Shown here one piece after another: positions 2,881 to 56,347 of a stretch of 64,000 bases of DNA. The notes beneath the pieces were generated by a model. That model saw only the letters and a program-made list of their open reading frames with translations. It searched no databases and was not told where the DNA came from. Source of the stretch: Clostridiales bacterium (GTDB taxonomy: Bacteria; Bacillota; Clostridia; Lachnospirales; WQUN01); assembly GCA_031287685.1 (NCBI GenBank), contig JAITSQ010000020.1, positions 1-64,000 on the forward strand, in the 5' to 3' direction. Within the stretch, counting starts at the first letter, position 1. Each line of letters starts with the position of its first letter. A program made the position numbers and the translations under genes.

Positions 2881-4423
2881 TTACGCGGTTTTCTTTTTGG
2901 CGCGATATTCGCGCTGACGGTCGCGGTGCTTGGCTCGGCGTTCATTGGCTCTACGCTCCGTCTCGATTTGCTCCGGCGTGAAAATTGGGTCCAGCGTCAC
3001 GCTGGTCGGCACGTCGAAGTTGCCGATAAAACTGAGATGGATGTCGATTTGCTGAACGCGCTTACCGCTTGACAAGTTCCATAAATCGGTCAGCTTTCAC
3101 GCTGTCGGCGGCAAAATCGTCAATATTTTTTTGTAATACTGCGATGTCGCCGTCAAGCGTGTGCTGCTCCACGTCGTACTCGCCAATCAGTCGCGTGAAG
3201 TGATTTTCGGGGATTTTCCCCGTGGCGTAGGACTCGTACAACTTTTTTATCAGCCCGTCCAATTCCTCACGCCGCCGCTTCATCTTGACGAACTGCTTCT
3301 TGCTCTCCTTGACCTCCGCTTCTACCCGTAAATTTGACGCTTCGCGGACACGTTCGACGAACTCCGCTTCATTTTGCTTGACGTATCCAGCCACGCGCTG
3401 AATGGCATTGAGAATCAAATCCTCAATGACGTTGGCACGGACGTAGTGCATTGTGCAATTTTTCGTTCCCTGCTGGTAATTTCCGCAGACGTACTCGTTC
3501 TTTTCCTTGCCCGTCCGATAGTCGGTATTTCGGGCGTGAGTAAGCAGTTTTCCGCAGTCCGCGCAGTAAAGCAACCCCGTCAGCGGGTTTGGCTTCCCCT
3601 GTGGTATCCGTTCGGCGCTTAACCTCGCGGCTTATACGGCGGCTTGCTCGTGCGGAAATTCACGGTGTGACCGCAATATTCCGGGCGAGCGAGAATGAAC
3701 GTCGCCATATGAGTTCCCCACACATACGGGTCTGCCGCGTCGAGCGCGCCGCTGTAGTTGACGTAGCCGCGTTTCGTCATATAATATGACGGTCGCTCAA
3801 CCTTGTCGTCGTGCAGTATGCGGCAGATTTCAAAAGGGCCTTTTCCCGCGACGGTAAGGTCGAAAATTTGCCGCACGACGGCCGCCGAGTCCGGGTCTAC
3901 CCGCCAGACGTTCGCGTCCGATGGGTCTTTGTAATATCCAAACGGGGGTTTGGTCGAAAGCGGCTTGCCGGACTTGCCTTTTGTTTGCAATGACGATTTT
4001 ATTTTGCGCGATATGTCGCGGGCGTAATATTCCGCCATAATCTCGCGGAACGGCACAAAATCGTCGTCGTGGTCGAAAGTGTCAACGCCGTCGTTCACGG
4101 CAATCAGGCGTATGCCACGTTCGGCGAACATCTCGCGCAATATGCCGGATTCAAGGTAATTTCGCCCCATTCGGTCAAGGCTTTTGAGGATAATCGTGCC
4201 AACCTCGTCAGCGTCAACCTTTGACATAAGTTCCTGCCACGCCGGGCGCTCGTAATTCGCGCCGCTTTTGCCATCATCAGCGAGGCAGATGTAGGGCGTG
4301 TAGCCGTTGCGCTCGGCGTATTCAATCAATAATTTGCGTTGATTTTTGATACTGTTCGATTCTTTGTCAACGCTGTCTAGGGCGCTGAGACGAGCGTACA
4401 AAAATCGTGAGCTTCGCGTTCAT
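2881..4423 (-). pseudogene. Large serine recombinase (Tn4451 TnpX/ICE type), decayed
   Basis: All parts of a large serine recombinase are present but broken. The resolvase domain (YARLSALD with the catalytic Ser, SNSIKNQRKLL, RMGRNYLESG) and the recombinase domain lie at 3619-4401. The zinc ribbon (LLYCADCGKLLTH, then YVCGNYQQG) and coiled coil lie at 3062-3580, and the C-terminal tail (IDIHLSFIGNF, REYRAKKKTA) at 2881-3075. The true start is probably ATG 4423-4421, preceded by AGGAGG. A five-A run at 4400-4404 shifts the frame after MNAKLTI. About 35 residues are missing near 3615-3625 with another frameshift near 3585-3600, and about 35 more at 3065-3072. This enzyme class excises and integrates mobile elements by Ser-mediated strand exchange. 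Here it is almost certainly inactive. Confidence 0.85.
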
Positions 4424-7332: not shown

Positions 7333-7458
7333 TATAGCAATTCCGTTTGATATTGGCGTTGCCCGGTGTTTTTTCGGCACTACTGCCTGCCGAAAAAGCC
7401 ACCTTCTTGCCCGCGATTTTCGGCTTAAACAACGCCAATCAAACATGAAATTGCTCTA
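7333..7458. repeat. Nested palindromic repeat, copy R1
   Basis: The ends are imperfect inverted repeats: TATAGCAATTCC on the left and TAGAGCAATTTC read inward from the right, each followed by TTTGAT and TTGGCGTTG. Inside is a core palindrome (GTTTTTTCGGCAC and, inverted, GGCTTTTTCGGCAGGC) flanked by TTGCCCG at 7359-7365 and 7407-7413, 48 bases apart. It lies in the intergenic gap between an unknown gene and the holin gene. Confidence 0.85.
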
Positions 7459-7479: not shown

Positions 7480-7890
7480 ATGAGCAGGACAGATTTATTT
7501 TCATTATCCGCCGCGGCGCTTGGCGGTTTTTTAGGCGCGGCGCTGGGCGGCTGGGACGGCTTTCTCCGGGGGCTTGTGATGTTTTGCGCGATGGATTTTT
7601 TGACCGGATTATTGGTATCCGTCAAGGACAAAACGTATGAATCAAGCAAGGCGTTCTGGGGAATTACGCGGAAATGCCTGATTTTCGCCCTTGTCGCGGT
7701 GGGCGTGGCGGTGGACACGGCTTTTATCGGCGACGGGTCTGTCGTCCGCACGGCGATAATATTTTTTTACGCAAGCACGGAGGGGATTTCGGTGCTTGAA
7801 AACGCCGGGAAACTGGGCTTGCCCGTGCCGGGGAAATTAAGGGACGCGCTGAAACAGCTTGGCAAAGGGGGCGGAGGAGATGTTAAATGA
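7480..7890 (+). CDS. Phage-type holin (Holin_4/TcdE-like family)
   Basis: This 136-residue membrane protein has about three hydrophobic segments (near residues 8-25, 28-45, 66-85) and the family motif around MDFLTGLLVSVKDKTYESSKAFWGITRK. Such holins form pores that let the endolysin reach the peptidoglycan or support toxin secretion. A strong AGAGGGGG site precedes the ATG. Length fits the family (about 130-150). The amidase follows two genes later, making a classical holin-endolysin pair. No capsid or packaging genes lie near, so the cassette is either a remnant or domesticated. Confidence 0.85.
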   Translation: MSRTDLFSLSAAALGGFLGAALGGWDGFLRGLVMFCAMDFLTGLLVSVKDKTYESSKAFWGITRKCLIFALVAVGVAVDTAFIGDGSVVRTAIIFFYASTEGISVLENAGKLGLPVPGKLRDALKQLGKGGGGDVK

Positions 7891-8092: not shown

Positions 8093-8821
8093 ATGACCAT
8101 CAAACGCAAGATTTGCCCTCCGGGGCTGAAAAATAACCCGAACAAGCCGATTTCCGCGATAAACGCGGTGACGATTCACACCACGGGGAACCGCGACTTG
8201 TCCGCCACGGCAGGTATGCACGCGGATTATCAATTCGGCGGCTCCGGCGGGCGGGAGGCCAGCTGGCATTATACCGTTGACGACGTGGAAATTTGGCAGT
8301 CGTTTGAGGACGGCCAAATGTGCTGGCACGCGGGAAACAAGGCGGGCAACGAGCAGAGTATAGGCATAGAAATATGCGTGAACAAGGGCGCGACGGGGTT
8401 CGCGATTGCTTGCCGGAACGCCGCTTGGCTCGTCGCGGAATTATTGACAAAGCATAATTTGTCAGTCGCGGTGGTCAAACAGCATTATAATTGGAGCGGC
8501 AAGAACTGCCCCGCCGAGCTTAGAAGCGGGGAGTGGGGCGTGGATTGGGAGGGGTTTTTGAAAATGATAAATGACGCGATTGAGCAGATTAAGAACGCGC
8601 CGAGCGAGGAGGGGGCTTTTTCGGCGGGTCAACTTGGCCACCCGGCCAGCAAGCAGAGCTTGCGAGAGGGCAGTAGCGCCGAAAAAACACCGAGCGATTG
8701 GGCCAAAGAGGCTTGGGAGTGGGCGGTTGGGAATAAGATTACCGACGGAACGGAGCCGAAAGGCGCGGTGACGAGGGAAATGGCGGCGACAATGATTTAC
8801 AGGGCAAGGAGCTTGAAATAG
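8093..8821 (+). CDS. N-acetylmuramoyl-L-alanine amidase (endolysin), carries an in-frame repeat
   Basis: This 242-residue endolysin has an Amidase_2 catalytic domain at about residues 15-145: VTIHTTGN with the first zinc His, WHYTVDD, then QHYNWSGKNCPAEL with later zinc ligands. It should cleave the bond between MurNAc and L-Ala. The C-terminus (DWAKEAWEWAVGNKITDG, VTREMAATMIYRA) is a single SLH-like wall-binding unit. Residues 172-201 are encoded by a 90-bp copy of a palindromic repeat flanked by the direct repeat CCGAGCGA. Removing it rejoins NAPS directly to DWAKEAWEW. The insert falls in the linker between domains, so activity may survive. There is no signal peptide, as expected with a holin. 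Confidence 0.88.
   Translation: MTIKRKICPPGLKNNPNKPISAINAVTIHTTGNRDLSATAGMHADYQFGGSGGREASWHYTVDDVEIWQSFEDGQMCWHAGNKAGNEQSIGIEICVNKGATGFAIACRNAAWLVAELLTKHNLSVAVVKQHYNWSGKNCPAELRSGEWGVDWEGFLKMINDAIEQIKNAPSEEGAFSAGQLGHPASKQSLREGSSAEKTPSDWAKEAWEWAVGNKITDGTEPKGAVTREMAATMIYRARSLK
8600..8697 (+). repeat. Palindromic repeat inserted in frame in the amidase gene
   Basis: The perfect 8-bp direct repeat CCGAGCGA occurs at 8600-8607 and 8690-8697. Between them is a palindromic core starting GGAGGGGGCTTTTTCGGC and ending GCGCCGAAAAAACA, with inner hairpin GCAAGC-AGA-GCTTGC. The same core occurs in the intergenic elements at 7333, 51318 and 52205. The insertion adds 90 bp (30 codons) and no stop codon. 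Confidence 0.88.
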
Positions 8822-8851: not shown

Positions 8852-10033
8852 TTTGCTTGCGCCGACTGCGGCGGCAAGCTCTACGTCCACCGTATCACAA
8901 ACGGCAAAGATAATCCGATGTACGTTTGCGGCAACTACGGAAAAATCCATGTCGGGAGCAAGTGCGCGTAGGCGCACCGTATCAGCGCGGACAAGCTGAT
9001 GAACCTTGTCGCGGAAACGCTCCGCGAGGTTACGAAATACGCCGTTACCGACCGCGAAGCGTTCGCAAGGCGCGTACAGGAAACCTTATCGGCGAAACAG
9101 CCCGACGAGGTAAAAACGCAGAAGAAACAGCTTGTAAAGTTACAGGCGCGGCAGTCGGAGCTTGAAATGTTGTTCCGCAGAATTTACGAGGACAACGCCC
9201 TCGGCAAGTTACCCGATAAACGCTTTGCCGCTCTGTCCGCTGAATACGAGCGGGAACAGACGGAAATTGAGAGCCAAATCCCAGAATTGCAAACCGCCGT
9301 GGAGCGTTACGAGAGCGGCAGCTAGAGGGCGAAACAGTTTGTCGAACTGGTGAAACGCTATGAAACTTTCAGCGAATTGACCGTGCCAATGCTGAATGAG
9401 TTTGTGGAGCGGATAATCGTCCACGAGCGCGACCGCAAAGGCGCGATAGATTCATCTCAAAGGGTGGAAATCCACTTCAATTTTATCGGCGAGTTTGCAC
9501 CACTGCCCGAACTGCGGGAAAAGGTATCGGATATGTACGGTGAACAGCTTGCCCTAAGCGATAAATTCAAGCCCGTAGAGCGGCGTTTGAAAACGCTTGA
9601 CGAGCATATACGGCACAGCGAGAATTTCAAGAAACATCGCGGACACAAGGCGCTGTACGAGAAGCTGTACGCGCAATATAAAACCCTCAAAAAAGAAACA
9701 GGCTTATTCTCAAAAGGCAAAGCGCAAAAGGCTCTCGACGCCGCGAACGAATACCACGATACCTACCGCGCCGAATTGTCGATGTATGACGCCGCCGAGC
9801 GGTATTTGAAAGACGTTTTACAGGAGCGTTTCGACCCCAAAAAGCTACCGCCGATTACCAAGTGGAAAAAGGAACGCGACGCAAAAACCGCCGAGAAAAA
9901 AGTATTGGAACAGGACTACAAGCGCTTGAAAGACAAAATCCGCGAGGTTGAAATTATCCGCAAAGCCGCCGAACAAATAGCGCGGCAGATTGACCCGCCG
10001 CAGAGGGCGAGGACGCGCGAAATGGAGTTGTGA
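8852..10033 (+). pseudogene. Recombinase C-terminus fused in frame to a relaxase tail, with two amber codons
   Basis: One reading frame of about 1.18 kb begins in the middle of a serine-recombinase zinc ribbon (FACADCGGKLYVHR, MYVCGNYG). It continues through the coiled coil and ends the recombinase part at QRVEIHFNFIGEF near 9495. It then becomes the C-terminal tail of an ICE/IME relaxase (KTLDEHIRHSENFKKHRG, DVLQERFDPKKLPPITKWKK, TREMEL). TAG codons interrupt it at 8969-8971 and 9323-9325, but there is no frameshift. The N-terminal resolvase domain is missing. It follows the amidase by 30 bp. A deletion joining two genes of a mobile element is the simplest origin. The sub-frame from 9350 could in principle still make a 227-residue protein. 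Confidence 0.8.
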
Positions 10034-30018: not shown

Positions 30019-31431
30019 CTATTTTAGAATGTCGTCAAATTCTTCTATCTGCGCCCCGCCCGTGATTACTATCACATTATCGCCCCTGTGGATTTCGGTT
30101 TCCCCTCCAGGGATAATCACATTCCCGTTCCGGACGACGCAGCAGATAAGCACCTCTTTTTTCATCGGCAGGTCTTTCAGCCGGATATTCAGGCATTTTG
30201 AGGACTCCGATACCTCGAACTCAAGCGCCTCTATATCCAAATCGTCCACGCCCGGCGTTTTAGCGCGGTTATTGCCCCGCCAAAACGCCGTCTCCTTGTC
30301 CACAATTTTATGCATCGCGCGGAAAGAGCCGCTTCTTTTGGAGACGGTCATCCCCCGCACGAACTGTATAATATTATAGGAAGTAATCAGCTTCGGGCAG
30401 ATGACGCTCCCGAGATTCAGCTTTTTCACTATGTCCGCGTTTATGTGGTTTATTTTGACGACGACCTTGCCCACTCCCTGCTGCTTGCCGTACATAGCTA
30501 TTATGACGTTCTCCTCGTCCCTGTCGGTCAGGCAGACGACCGCGCCCATCTCGCCCATATGCTCCGACTCAAGCACGGACTCGTCCGTGCCGTCGCCGTG
30601 GATAATAAGAGCGGAGGGCAGAGCCTCGGAAAGCTGCTGGCACCGCTCCTCGTCAATTTCAATAATGCGGAGGCGCGCGCTGAAACGCGCCATAAAGTTG
30701 CAGAAATAGCGCGTTATCTTCCCGCCGCCTATCACCATAATATCACGTATTTTTTCATTAAATATCCCGATATGGCGGAAAAAATCCATAATATCGTCGG
30801 CGGCTCCCGCAATCCGCAGAATATCGCCGCGCCGAAGCTCCATATCGCCGTGCGGCACGGCCACCCGCCCGCCCCTCTCGACAGTCACAAGCAGCACGGG
30901 AATTTTAATTTTAGCGAATATCTGCGATATAAGCCGACCGTCCAAGGGACTGCCCTCGGCCAGGTCAAACGCGACAATTTCAACCCGCCCGCCCACGAAA
31001 GTCATTATGTCCTTTGCCGTGGGGAATCGGATAAGCCGCGATATTTCAAACGCGGCCTGCTGCTCCGGGTTTATGATGAGGTCAAGCCCCAAATCGCTCT
31101 TGAACTTCATAAGCTCCACGGCGTACTCCGGGTCCCGTATGCGCGCGGCGGTCAGGCGCACGCCGAGCCGCTTGGCGGTCAGCGCGCACAAAATATTCGT
31201 TTCGTCGTTCCCCGCGACGCACACTATAAGGTCGGACTCCTTCGCGCCCGCCTCAAGCAGAACCCGCGCCGAAAGAGCGTTCCCCCGCAGGGTCATAACG
31301 TCCAAAGATTCCGTTACTTTGTCAAAGACTTCGGCCTTTTTATCAATTATGGTGATGCTGTGATTTTCCACGGACAGATACTTGGCTATAGTGTGCCCGA
31401 CTTTGCCGCAGCCTACAATTATGACGTTCAT
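30019..31431 (-). CDS. trkA: TrkA potassium-uptake regulatory subunit
   Basis: This 470-residue cytosolic protein has two tandem RCK units. The first Rossmann fold is VIIVGCGKVGHTIAKYL with acidic ITIIDK. The second is IMVIGGGKITRYFCNFM. Each is followed by a TrkA-C domain (RGGRVAVPHGDMELRRGD, and IIPGGETEIHRGDNVIVITG at the end). It binds NAD(H)/ATP and gates TrkH. The full double-length form is typical. It lies between a hybrid kinase gene and trkH. Confidence 0.93.
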   Translation of the reverse strand: MNVIIVGCGKVGHTIAKYLSVENHSITIIDKKAEVFDKVTESLDVMTLRGNALSARVLLEAGAKESDLIVCVAGNDETNILCALTAKRLGVRLTAARIRDPEYAVELMKFKSDLGLDLIINPEQQAAFEISRLIRFPTAKDIMTFVGGRVEIVAFDLAEGSPLDGRLISQIFAKIKIPVLLVTVERGGRVAVPHGDMELRRGDILRIAGAADDIMDFFRHIGIFNEKIRDIMVIGGGKITRYFCNFMARFSARLRIIEIDEERCQQLSEALPSALIIHGDGTDESVLESEHMGEMGAVVCLTDRDEENVIIAMYGKQQGVGKVVVKINHINADIVKKLNLGSVICPKLITSYNIIQFVRGMTVSKRSGSFRAMHKIVDKETAFWRGNNRAKTPGVDDLDIEALEFEVSESSKCLNIRLKDLPMKKEVLICCVVRNGNVIIPGGETEIHRGDNVIVITGGAQIEEFDDILK

Positions 31432-41638: not shown

Positions 41639-41772
41639 TATAGCAATTCCGTTTGACATAAGCCGCGCTCGGCGTTTTTTGGCGCCTCCCCGCATTGGCT
41701 TCGCCAACGCTCGCGGCTTGGCATCACGATTTCCGGCTCGAAAGCGGCAAGTCAAACATTGAATTGCCCTAT
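41639..41772. repeat. Nested palindromic repeat, copy R3
   Basis: Left end TATAGCAATTCCGTTTGACA and right end (inward) ATAGGGCAATTCAATGTTTG are the same inverted termini as the other elements. The interior differs: GCTCGGCGTTTTTTGGCGCC near 41670-41690 is an inverted variant of the core right end, and a GCGAGCGTT-type hairpin follows. It fills most of the gap between two minus-strand genes. Confidence 0.75.
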
Positions 41773-41877: not shown

Positions 41878-42750
41878 CTAATAAAACCGCTTCTTCACGA
41901 ACGCGTTCACAAGCGCCGCCGCCACCGCGCCAAGGGACGCGGCGGGCAAGAGGGCAATCATCACCAGAAGCCCCCCGCGCGGGAGCAGACACAGAGCCTC
42001 AACCGCCGCCGCGGAAAGAGCCACGGCCCAGTACGGCGCCGGCGCCGCCTTAGTTAAAAGCTCCGCCGCGCAGACGCAAATAGCCGCCTCCCCGAACAGC
42101 GCCGCTATGTAAAAAACAATAATTATAAGTAAAGCGACCGGCCAGCCCACCGCGCTCATAAGCAAAACCCCGGCACAAACCGCCGCCGTAAAAAAGGCTG
42201 AAACCCCGAGCTTAAACAGGTTTTCCGGCTCATTCCGCGCGGCCCTGGCGGCCTGCTCCGTGAATACGGGAAACGCCGCGCAAATCAAAAGCGCTAAAAG
42301 TATTTTCGCCGCGGACACAAACAAGGCCAGCGTTTCGGGAAATATATATATATACCTGCCGCCGGCTCTCAACGGGTCTATCCCGAATGAACCCGCCCGC
42401 GCGGCGTCGGACAGGCGGCAGCCCACGGCGGTAAAATCCCCTGTGACCGCCGCCCGCTCCCCGAAGCTCATACTGCCGAAAATCGCCGTAATATCGCCTT
42501 CGTGCCGCCCGTTCAGCGTAACCTCGCCAAAAAGGAAAACCGCGTTCCCGCTCGTCGTCTCGTAATACTCCGCGCGGGAAAATAAGGAAAACGCCGGAAG
42601 CTCCCGCGCGGCGGCGGGGCCGGCGGCTTTTACCCCCGCCGCCAAGGAGGGGGCTTTATGTTGTCTAAACCCCTTTAGACGACATAAAACACCGAGCAAG
42701 CCCAACGCCGCGCACAAGAAAACGCATATTAATAATGTAATTTTACGCAT
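41878..42750 (-). CDS. Polytopic membrane protein with bactofilin-like segment (ECF operon)
   Basis: This 290-residue protein has an N-terminal hydrophobic segment and then a short polymer-forming/bactofilin-like beta segment (FLFGEVTLNGRHEGDITAIF, AVTGDFTAVGC, near residues 70-115). About five transmembrane helices follow to residue 285. Residues 18-35 (LLGVLCRLKGFRQHKAPS) are encoded by a 54-bp palindromic repeat; deleting it joins FLCAALG to LAAGVK smoothly. The gene overlaps the anti-sigma gene by eight bases, so it belongs to the ECF sigma operon and is probably an envelope-stress effector. Family only loosely recognised. Confidence 0.6.
   Translation of the reverse strand: MRKITLLICVFLCAALGLLGVLCRLKGFRQHKAPSLAAGVKAAGPAAARELPAFSLFSRAEYYETTSGNAVFLFGEVTLNGRHEGDITAIFGSMSFGERAAVTGDFTAVGCRLSDAARAGSFGIDPLRAGGRYIYIFPETLALFVSAAKILLALLICAAFPVFTEQAARAARNEPENLFKLGVSAFFTAAVCAGVLLMSAVGWPVALLIIIVFYIAALFGEAAICVCAAELLTKAAPAPYWAVALSAAAVEALCLLPRGGLLVMIALLPAASLGAVAAALVNAFVKKRFY
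42638..42699. repeat. Core palindrome inserted in frame in a membrane-protein gene
   Basis: GGAGGGGGCTTT leads into stem TTATGTTGTCTAAA (42656-42669), loop CCCC, and TTTAGACGACATAA (42674-42687), ending AAAACA. Imperfect direct repeats GCCGCCAA (42638-42645) and CCGAGCAA (42692-42699) flank it. The unit adds 54 bp, or 18 codons, with no stop, and lies antisense relative to the amidase copy with respect to gene direction. Confidence 0.75.
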
Positions 42751-50834: not shown

Positions 50835-51317
50835 GTGACCATTATCGTAGGTATGGCAGACCTTAAAGTTACGAAAGAACCATCGAGCATGCTCACCACC
50901 CTGGGCTTAGGCTCCTGCGTCGGCATCGCTCTTTACGACGCCCAGTCGAAGGTCGCCGGGCTGGCCCACATTATGCTCCCCGACAGCACGCAGATTCAAA
51001 ACAACAAGAACATCGCCAAATTCGCGGACACCGCGCTCAAAAAGATGATTTCCGATATGCTGCTGCTCGGCGCCAATAAATCCCTGCTTAAGGCGAAAAT
51101 CGCGGGCGGGGCGCAGATGTTCGCTTTTGAGTCCCTTAATCCGGGAATGAGAATCGGCGAGCGCAATATAGAGGCGGTGCGGCGTCAGCTGAAGCTCTAC
51201 AATATTCCCATACTCGGGCAGGACGTCGGGCTTAACTACGGGCGCACCGTCGAGCTTTATGTAAACGACGGCAGTTTCCTCATAAAGACCATAGGGCACG
51301 GCAACAAGACTGTGTGA
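50835..51317 (+). CDS. cheD: CheD chemoreceptor glutamine deamidase, copy 1
   Basis: This 160-residue protein starts at GTG 50835, directly after the cheC stop. The catalytic Cys28 is in LGLGSCVGIALYD and His45 in GLAHIMLPDS, with the conserved AGGAQMF and ILGQDVGLNYGRTVELY segments. CheD deamidates receptor glutamines and is inhibited by CheC. A palindromic repeat begins one base after the stop codon. A second cheD lies beyond it. Confidence 0.94.
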   Translation: MTIIVGMADLKVTKEPSSMLTTLGLGSCVGIALYDAQSKVAGLAHIMLPDSTQIQNNKNIAKFADTALKKMISDMLLLGANKSLLKAKIAGGAQMFAFESLNPGMRIGERNIEAVRRQLKLYNIPILGQDVGLNYGRTVELYVNDGSFLIKTIGHGNKTV

Positions 51318-51467
51318 TATAGCAATTCCATGTTTGATTGGCGTTCTTCAAGAAGGGGGCTTTTTCGCGGGGCAGTAACCGTGAAAAAACACCGAGCAAG
51401 CCGAAAATCGCGGGCAAGGAGGTGGCTTTTTCGGCAGGCCAACACGGCCGCCCGGTTTTAACCCGGA

Positions 51468-51511
51468 GACGCGTTTAGGTTTTGTGCGGCTTCAAGCACA
51501 AAACCTGCGTC
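51468..51511. repeat. Hairpin A with GTTT bulge (in R4)
   Basis: Outer stem GACGC/GCGTC, bulge GTTT, inner stem AGGTTTTGTGC/GCACAAAACCT, loop GGCTTCAA. All 16 pairs are perfect. Compared with hairpin B, four inner pairs differ with both partners changed. Confidence 0.85.
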
Positions 51512-51530
51512 GAAGGGTTTTTAACCCGAA

Positions 51531-51574
51531 GGCGTGTTTAGTGTTCGCGCGGCTTTAGGCGCGAACACTGCGCC
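51531..51574. repeat. Hairpin B with GTTT bulge (in R4)
   Basis: Outer stem GGCGT/GCGCC, bulge GTTT, inner stem AGTGTTCGCGC/GCGCGAACACT, loop GGCTTTAG. Pairing is complete with one T-G wobble in the outer stem. Confidence 0.85.
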
Positions 51575-51724
51575 GGAGGGCCAGCAAGCAGAGCTTGCGA
51601 GAGGGCATTAGTGCCGAAAAAACACCGGCTCAAACGCGTTTTCGGCGCGGAAGAACGCCAACATCAAACGGAATTGCTATATAACTTAACTTACGCTCAG
51701 TCGCGGCGGATAGGGGCGGTCACT

Positions 51725-52204
51725 GTGAAAATCACCGTGGAGATAGCGGATTTCAAGGTCACTAAAGACTCGGACAGCGTAATCACGACGCTGAACCTCG
51801 GCTCCTGCGTCGGCATAGCCCTCTATGACCCGAACAGGAAAATAGCGGGCCTGGCTCATATTATGCTCCCCGACAGCACAAACGCGCTTGACAACTCAAA
51901 CCCGGCCAAATTCGCCGACTCGGCGCTGGCGCTTATGCTTCAGGAAATGACGAAGCTCGGAGCGAACAAGGCCGCCCTTCAGGCGAAAATCGCGGGCGGG
52001 GCGCAGATGTTCTTTTCGCCCGCCGGCCCGGCTTCGCGAATCGGCCAGCGCAACGCTGACACGACGAGCCGCCTGCTCCGGCTCTACGGCATACCCATAC
52101 TCGGGCAGGACGTCGGGCTTAACTACGCGCGTACCGTCGAGCTTTACTCAAAAGACGGCTCGGTGGTCATAAAAACCGCCGGCCGCGCAGACAAGGCCAT
52201 TTAA
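51725..52204 (+). CDS. cheD: CheD chemoreceptor glutamine deamidase, copy 2
   Basis: This 159-residue paralogue of the preceding gene starts at GTG 51725 (AGGGGCGG upstream). The open frame continues 38 codons further into repeat R4 but that part has no resemblance to CheD. Cys28 in LNLGSCVGIALYD and His45 in GLAHIMLPDS are kept, as are AGGAQMF and ILGQDVGLNYARTVELY. Differences are spread along the protein, so the duplication is not recent. Both copies appear functional; different receptor specificity is possible. Repeat R5 begins at the base after the stop. Confidence 0.93.
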   Translation: MKITVEIADFKVTKDSDSVITTLNLGSCVGIALYDPNRKIAGLAHIMLPDSTNALDNSNPAKFADSALALMLQEMTKLGANKAALQAKIAGGAQMFFSPAGPASRIGQRNADTTSRLLRLYGIPILGQDVGLNYARTVELYSKDGSVVIKTAGRADKAI

Positions 52205-52285
52205 GGCAATTCCATGTTTGATTGGCGTTGTTCAAGGAGGTGGCTTTTTCGGCAGGCCAACACGGCCGCCCGGTTTTAACCCGGA

Positions 52286-52329
52286 GACGCGTTTAGTGTT
52301 CGCGCGGCTTTAGGCGCGAATACTGCGTC
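52286..52329. repeat. Hairpin C with GTTT bulge (in R5)
   Basis: Outer stem GACGC/GCGTC, bulge GTTT, inner stem AGTGTTCGCGC/GCGCGAATACT with one G-T pair, loop GGCTTTAG. Confidence 0.82.
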
Positions 52330-52348
52330 GGAGGGTTTTTAACCCGAA

Positions 52349-52392
52349 GGCGTGTTTAGCGTTCGCGCGGCTTTAGGCGCGAACACTGCGTC
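52349..52392. repeat. Hairpin D with GTTT bulge (in R5)
   Basis: Outer stem GGCGT/GCGTC with wobbles, bulge GTTT, inner stem AGCGTTCGCGC/GCGCGAACACT with one C-A mismatch, loop GGCTTTAG. It is the least perfect of the four. Confidence 0.78.
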
Positions 52393-52524
52393 GGAGGGCC
52401 GGCAAGCAGAGCTTGCGAGAGGGCATTAGTGCCGAAAAAACACCGGCTCCAACGCGTTTTCGGCGCGAAAGAACACCAATTAAACGGAATTGCTATAGCG
52501 AAATAAAAAAGAGGTGCGTTAAAG

Positions 52525-56185: not shown

Positions 56186-56347
56186 GAACCTGTTCCCATA
56201 GGTATAAATGTCGGATTTAAGAGCGAATTTTTACGGTTTCAAGGCGCGATGAGCGCCGCGTACCCGTAGGTACGCAAGCGAAGCGCAACGAAGAATCCGT
56301 GAAAATTCGCCATAAAGACGGCGTTTATATCCTATGGGAACAGGTTC
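56186..56347. repeat. MITE-like element of a second family
   Basis: Imperfect inverted repeats of about 50 bp begin GAACCTGTTCCCATAGG at both ends (56186-56202 and inverted 56331-56347), followed by TATAAA-like and GCGAATTTTNACGG segments. An inner hairpin GCGTACC/GGTACGC lies near 56257-56274. There is no coding frame. It occupies the whole gap between two plus-strand genes and could form a long hairpin in the transcript. Confidence 0.85.

Follow-up and report, generated by a model that had tools for sequence, protein, structure and literature searches.

The window, a 64-kb stretch of a clostridial genome, contains a prophage endolysin gene (8093-8821, + strand) that is a single ORF of 242 aa with no internal stop. 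A phage holin (Phage_holin_4_1) is encoded shortly upstream, at 7480-7890. The endolysin harbors an Amidase_2 catalytic domain at residues 22-141 (Pfam, 1.1e-21), followed by a linker and a C-terminal SLH-like segment (DWAKEAWEW...). The linker contains an 88-nt hairpin repeat unit at 8608-8695 (+ strand), which was delimited by family alignment, covariation and the 345 genome copies of its right end. The outer arms of the unit occupy 8608-8628 (GGAGGGGGCTTTTTCGGCGGG) and 8671-8695 (...TAGCGCCGAAAAAACACCGAGC) of the + strand. A second module of 42 nt, or 14 codons, is nested between them at 8629-8670 in the loop of a 46-nt unit, as determined by comparison with positions 18484-18529 of L072 and with other 88-nt units. 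The octamer CCGAGCGA is found at 8600-8607, where it covers the original linker codons P-S-D on the target side and is present in insert-free homologues, and again at 8690-8697, 90 bp away from start to start. The last two bases of each copy form a GA pair that flanks the unit on the left (8606-8607) and on the right (8696-8697). Directly downstream of the endolysin, at 8860-10033, are remnants of a large serine recombinase (a zinc-ribbon-like part with stops, then DUF4368) that are probably a decayed integrase.

The segment encodes EEGAFSAGQLGHPASKQSLREGSSAEKTPS, and the reading frame is open throughout. The exact insert is residues 172-201 (30 aa), because the upstream CCGAGC belongs to the old gene, whereas the downstream one is the right end of the unit itself. 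The first-pass annotation, made from the sequence alone, had described an insert of 30 codons without a stop, located between the catalytic and SLH-like domains, and both features were recovered in the ORF and domain assignments given above. It had also claimed that the insert is a copy of an intergenic core, which agrees with the 80-82% identity over 74 nt to positions 51554-51627 and 52372-52445. In the predicted structure, residues 172-198 have pLDDT values below 50 and lie between confident catalytic and C-terminal parts. This is consistent with a loose loop, and the low pLDDT may also stem from an alignment that holds no homologue with the insert. From the open frame and the conserved domains we infer that the insert supplies a translated peptide, and the stretches EGAFSAGQLGHPASK and EGSSAEK are candidate peptides diagnostic of its translation.

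Sequence comparison confirmed that the segment is an insertion and not an ordinary linker, because the junction is found without the insert both in phage homologues and in several same-family genomes. The insert-free endolysins of phage contigs (L115-L130) read NKPSDWAKEAWEW, NQPSDWAKEAWEW, NTPSSWAKEAWEW or KPSEWAKEAWEW, and the same-family genomes are also uninterrupted (NAPSDWAKEAW in L088, NNKPSDW in L087 and KPSEWAKEAWEW in L136). In the DNA of L088, AACGCTCCCAGCGATTGGG stands at the position that is taken up in the window by AACGCGCCGAGCGA, the insert and then TTGGG. The upstream CCGAGC is part of the old gene; homologues encode PS there, L088 reads CCCAGCGATTGG, and the insert-free DNA at the upstream CCGAGCGA site is AACGCTCCCAGCGATTGG in L088 and AACAAACCAAGCGACTGG in L115. 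When the alignment with insert-free amidases proposed in the first-pass annotation was run, most homologues that reach the linker had a contiguous PS-[D/E/S/T/P]-WAKEAWEW and lacked the 30 residues. The predicted joining of NAPS to DWAKEAWEW upon removal of the insert is likewise seen as a natural junction in L088 and the phage homologues. A paralogue in another prophage (endolysin-2, L072) contains a plain 46-nt unit in frame in the same linker, without the 42-nt module. A second amidase copy (L139, G000:C27:1-3000) shares 85% identity with the window endolysin; another unit interrupts it after ...HNLSVA, close to the contig edge. An ORF on contig C9 that resembles a third endolysin was rejected as an intergenic array.

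The unit has the consensus AAG[AG]AGGnGGCTTT, then a variable, covarying stem and loop, then AAAACRCCGRGC, usually followed by AA. At the hairpin foot GGnG pairs with CRCC and TTTT pairs with AAAA, with an unpaired GC, and the stem above the foot contains compensated swaps (CG, GC, AT) that keep the pairing. In a covariation test with 28 distinct 46-nt units, 94% of cells were paired, and 46 cells were changed on both sides versus 19.5 in shuffles, with 0 of 500 shuffles as high. Shifting the partner by one column lowered pairing to about 54%. The element is a dispersed palindromic repeat with a short imperfect hairpin and compensated stem changes. Larger units contain further modules in the loop, the window copy being a 46-nt unit plus 42 nt, and units chain head to tail across the AA dinucleotide.

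The genome (G000) comprises 1.88 Mb in 37 contigs and is 97% complete; by PolC, its nearest named relatives are Clostridiales/Clostridia genomes at 57-60% identity, which places the organism in Clostridia. Across the genome there are 64 matches to the 100-nt segment, and the right end AAAACACCGAGC, with at most one mismatch, is found 345 times versus 5 for the reversed control. The tandem junction AAACRCCGRGCAAGRAGGNGGCTT occurs head to tail 139 times, versus 0 in 37 other genomes of the family, and a pattern scan for it in 84,980 species and in viral contigs found none. Whole units (GGCTT..AAACRCCGRGC) number 267 in this genome; in 294 other genomes of the order the count is 0-4 per genome, which is about the level of the control pattern. 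The repeat family is species-specific and totals approximately 270-345 copies in the 1.88 Mb, frequently arranged head to tail. Some copies are near-identical and others degenerate, and most are intergenic. A census sample of 917 kb, about half of the genome, contained 250 units paired at both ends and approximately 25 matches well inside called genes, of which 20 are sense and 16 of those are in the KEGAF frame. One of the 25, a DnaK-like match (L246 11787-11896), was discarded as a pattern match without a hairpin. Rfam at four loci returned only tRNAs.

Intergenic copies in the window lie inside longer repeats that have terminal inverted repeats (TIRs). A 46-nt unit at 7361-7406 (- strand), between phage genes, is inside the TIR-bearing repeat 7335-7455. 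A unit at 51352-51397 and a longer composite at 51418-51627 (together 51352-51627, + strand) are inside the repeat 51320-51678, and another composite copy at 52236-52445 (+ strand) is inside the repeat 52204-52494. The fourth TIR-bearing repeat in the window is at 41641-41768. These repeats form a second, MITE-like family with TIRs AGCAATTCC(nTG)TTTGA... next to TA, of which the 917 kb contain 34 TIR pairs, 74-498 bp long, many with hairpin units inside. In the region 50853-52204 one gene is present as two diverged copies in tandem, and a similar hairpin/TIR array follows each of them; the arrays therefore appear to have been duplicated together with the gene. A further inverted repeat is found at 56186-56347, with 55-nt arms that are 73% complementary and 52 nt between them.

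The endolysin is not the only protein gene that carries units. PolC (L075 11023-15450) has two different units in tandem, read as EAAFSAGISAEKTPST EAAFLGGSKREKTPST (32 aa), within a loop that has the length seen in relatives once the units are discounted; approximately 25 relatives lack units. The PolC stretch EAAFSAGISAEK is a candidate peptide diagnostic of insert translation. Alignments to PDB structures break at the unit in FolC (43 query residues versus 23), in a PdxK-type kinase (160 versus 24, a composite of several modules) and in LarC (59 versus 0). In the window, a degenerate 46-nt unit at 30250-30295 (- strand) is in frame in TrkA (30019-31431, - strand), where it encodes KETAFWRGNNRAKTPG in the linker before the second TrkA_C domain and the PDB TrkA alignment breaks (36 query residues versus 12). 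The sequence GTGGAC is present on both sides outside the TrkA unit (GTGGACAA...GTGGACGA); this duplication exceeds those at other sites in length and may be due to chance. In-frame units also occur in ComEA and in an NRPS, which has four, and an HTH_36 protein and a SpoIIE phosphatase carry units as well. Antisense copies are in frame in two or three genes, encoding a YhhN protein, a secreted protein (L246) and the window ORF 41878-42750 (- strand), within which a 52-nt unit at 42646-42697 (+ strand) is read as LGVLCRLKGFRQHKAPSL just after a signal-like N-terminus. Gene calls with N-terminal units (SpoIIP in L133 and a Cys/Met enzyme in L244) were set aside, as the true start may be downstream. 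Judged by alignment, insertion is in frame in unrelated genes with insert-free homologues, namely those of the endolysin, PolC, FolC, PdxK, TrkA and LarC. The proposal that the element enters coding sequence is thus borne out by an endolysin insert that homologues lack and by the other in-frame copies.

Unit lengths, including one flanking dinucleotide, are mostly 45, 48, 54, 90 or 102 bp. Of 218 distinct units, 163 are multiples of three, as are 44 of the 63 non-redundant types. Against an expectation of 1/3, the latter count gives a binomial p of ~4e-9, which is an upper bound on the strength of the signal since length classes share descent and the mod-3 statistic is not fully independent. 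The frame KEGAF...KTPS is open in 44 of 63 types versus 58% in palindromic shuffles, a modest excess, and the open frame, like length, is partly inherited within length classes. For all 17 tabulated in-gene units, length plus two is divisible by three.

The first-pass annotation had noted a perfect 8-bp direct repeat on both sides of the endolysin segment. The repeat CCGAGCGA is indeed perfect and does flank the segment, but it is not an 8-bp target-site duplication, because six of the eight bases are the unit's own conserved end. It splits into CCGAGC, which is the unit's right end and, independently, the PS codons of the target, and GA on both sides, the one part that behaves as a duplication would. 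Matching flanking pairs are also found in PolC (AC/AC/AC), across the NRPS array (GA...GA) and at most other sites (AA/AA); the flanks do not match in TrkA (AA/GT), YhhN (AA/AG) and endolysin-2 (AA/GA). Over all 66 non-redundant arrays the flanks match in 42 versus 37 expected, an excess that is small because AA dominates both sides, and a 2-bp duplication draws on three or four informative sites, AA/AA being indistinguishable from fixed unit ends. Upstream flanks have a mean of 2.65 of 6 matches to CCGRGC at -8 to -3, compared to about 1.75 at other offsets. Insertion sites thus appear to resemble CCGRGC-AA weakly, and joining may occur at CCGRGC-NN with a 2-bp core or duplication.

Two simpler accounts of the endolysin segment were considered. 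It could be an ordinary variable endolysin linker with a chance likeness to intergenic sequence, as the site is in a linker where the lengths of homologues vary. An 8-mer that recurs at +90 is also not rare, being found at ten positions in the 64-kb window, and because of this the weight of evidence rests on the repeat family. The DNA, however, matches many intergenic and intragenic copies at 80-94% identity across 74-96 nt, no homologue has the segment, and the unit recurs in unrelated proteins. The first-pass annotation had named the same residues encoded by unrelated DNA as the sign of an ordinary linker; the opposite was found, as homologues that reach the linker lack these residues, and many unrelated genes contain the same DNA element in frame. 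The genome-wide family and the insert-free homologues led to the rejection of an ordinary linker, and its probability is negligible. A classical MITE or IS-derived element that generated CCGAGCGA as an 8-bp target-site duplication would account for the perfect direct repeat and for the restored gene when one copy is removed. Yet CCGAGC is at the right end of the unit hundreds of times with different flanks, the other in-gene copies (PolC, NRPS, ComEA and HTH_36) lack an 8-bp duplication, and no terminal inverted repeats were seen beyond the hairpin arms. The 8-bp duplication was rejected, as CCGAGC is the unit's end, and such an element is very unlikely.

The choice among mobilizing mechanisms is less clear-cut. 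It is possible, if doubtful, that the unit is a REP-type element moved on single-stranded hairpins by a RAYT-like Y1 (HUH) transposase that has since been lost. The short imperfect hairpin with its unpaired GC bulge, the conserved flank G[AG]AG, the covarying stem and the hundreds of copies fit this mechanism, as does a copy in the DNA-metabolism gene PolC, similar to known intragenic REPs (PMC3733652). It is at odds with the zero matches to RAYT (PF01797, Y1 transposase) in the 97%-complete genome, where controls were positive, with a tag that is GAAG/GGAG and not GTAG or CGTC, with the common head-to-tail chains where inverted (HH) dimers dominate in REPs, and with 2-bp flanking pairs that are not expected from such chemistry. 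IS630-type DDE_3 was likewise not found. A less probable mechanism is conservative site-specific recombination, for example by a serine recombinase, in which excised circles of at least one unit recombine at CCGRGC-NN with NN as a 2-bp crossover. The same dinucleotide at both ends and between the tandem units in PolC, and at the outer ends of the NRPS array, speaks for it, as do targets that resemble the unit's right end. The genome has five resolvase-family loci, one of them in the window (a resolvase-domain gene at 3964-4404, - strand), but no physical tie between the recombinase genes and the units was found, the likeness of the target is weak at most sites, and serine recombinases usually require longer paired sites. 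About equally improbable is a spread that requires no dedicated enzyme and results from errors of replication or from template switching where hairpins and microhomology occur. In its favor are the microhomology of insertion sites to the right end, the growth of tandem arrays, the perfect stems, which hairpin-templated correction could maintain, and the lack of any multicopy ORF or transposase in the 917 kb sampled, about half of the genome. Against it, this process does not readily yield single insertions that are dispersed over unrelated loci and have precise ends. A single reverse-transcriptase fragment is present in the genome (L260, G000:C36:1122-1529; RVT_1, 1.6e-12), and no tie to the units was found.

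It is highly probable, from the sequence comparisons, that the endolysin segment is a copy of a short, non-autonomous, hairpin-forming repeat that multiplied in one clostridial genome. In the endolysin, one unit entered the linker behind CCG AGC GA and lengthened it by exactly 30 codons. The hairpin would be the feature recognized by the mobilizing enzyme, and insertion would occur next to sequences weakly like the unit's right end (CCGRGC-AA), leaving the same 2 bp on both sides. With most length classes multiples of three and stop-free in KEGAF...KTPS, insertion would add a flexible, soluble peptide and the gene would not be destroyed. Copies in linkers and surface loops would survive and be translated as part of the protein.

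Comparable elements have been described in other bacteria. The Rickettsia palindromic elements (RPE) insert in frame in unrelated genes (PMC10969869), and the Wolbachia palindromic elements (WPE) insert in frame in addA, addB and priA (PMC4224334). The units are similar to RPE and WPE in that palindromes are in frame in many unrelated protein genes, with a recurring peptide and the gene kept (PMC10969869, PMC4224334). Unlike RPE, which are about 150 bp, the basic unit of the Bacillota family is 45-54 bp, a likeness and difference drawn by description and not by sequence; unlike both RPE and WPE, the family has head-to-tail chains, loop-nested modules and mostly intergenic copies, and it is in a different phylum. 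A survey of GTAG/CGTC REPs reported intragenic copies that encode 20-82 aa and are frequently located in genes for replication and repair, R. conorii DnaE among them, and its carrier phyla do not include Firmicutes (PMC3733652). These intragenic REPs (Opitutus terrae, Rickettsia conorii RPE-4/RPE-6 and Thauera) are also covarying hairpins, of 20-40 bp, single or grouped in genes, and R. conorii DnaE carries one as PolC carries units here (PMC3733652). The unit, however, has a left foot of G[AG]AG and a right foot of CCGRGC, distinct from the GTAG/CGTC tag of the REP/RAYT system; the family lacks RAYT, and it forms head-to-tail chains instead of the inverted dimers of REPs. PARCEL of Mollicutes are palindromic coding repeats that diversify proteins (PMC2996958), but they are domain repeats of particular, mostly membrane, proteins that spread as ORFs, whereas the hairpin unit is dispersed in unrelated enzymes and intergenic DNA. 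By these comparisons the units are an independent family in Bacillota, closest to RPE/WPE and intragenic REPs, without RAYT.

Until now, in-frame palindromic elements have been considered peculiar to Rickettsia and Wolbachia, with scattered intragenic REPs in addition, and a 2024 review of MITEs treated in-frame elements elsewhere as merely conceivable (PMC10969869). The proteins into which the Bacillota family has inserted comprise a replicative polymerase, an NRPS, a phage lysin, a potassium regulator and enzymes for folate and pyridoxal. A tentative reading is that the mobile hairpin itself became reading-frame neutral and serves as a moving source of linker peptides, with an enzyme that would join at CCGRGC-NN. 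As part of the same tentative reading, the unit, its tandem repeat and the loop-nested module would mostly be whole codons that give a soluble peptide from either strand and in more than one reading frame. The small size of the unit and the range from near-identical to degenerate copies allow a test of whether a mobile element can be shaped by selection for frame neutrality. The family also allows a test of whether inserts of this kind give rise to new protein segments.
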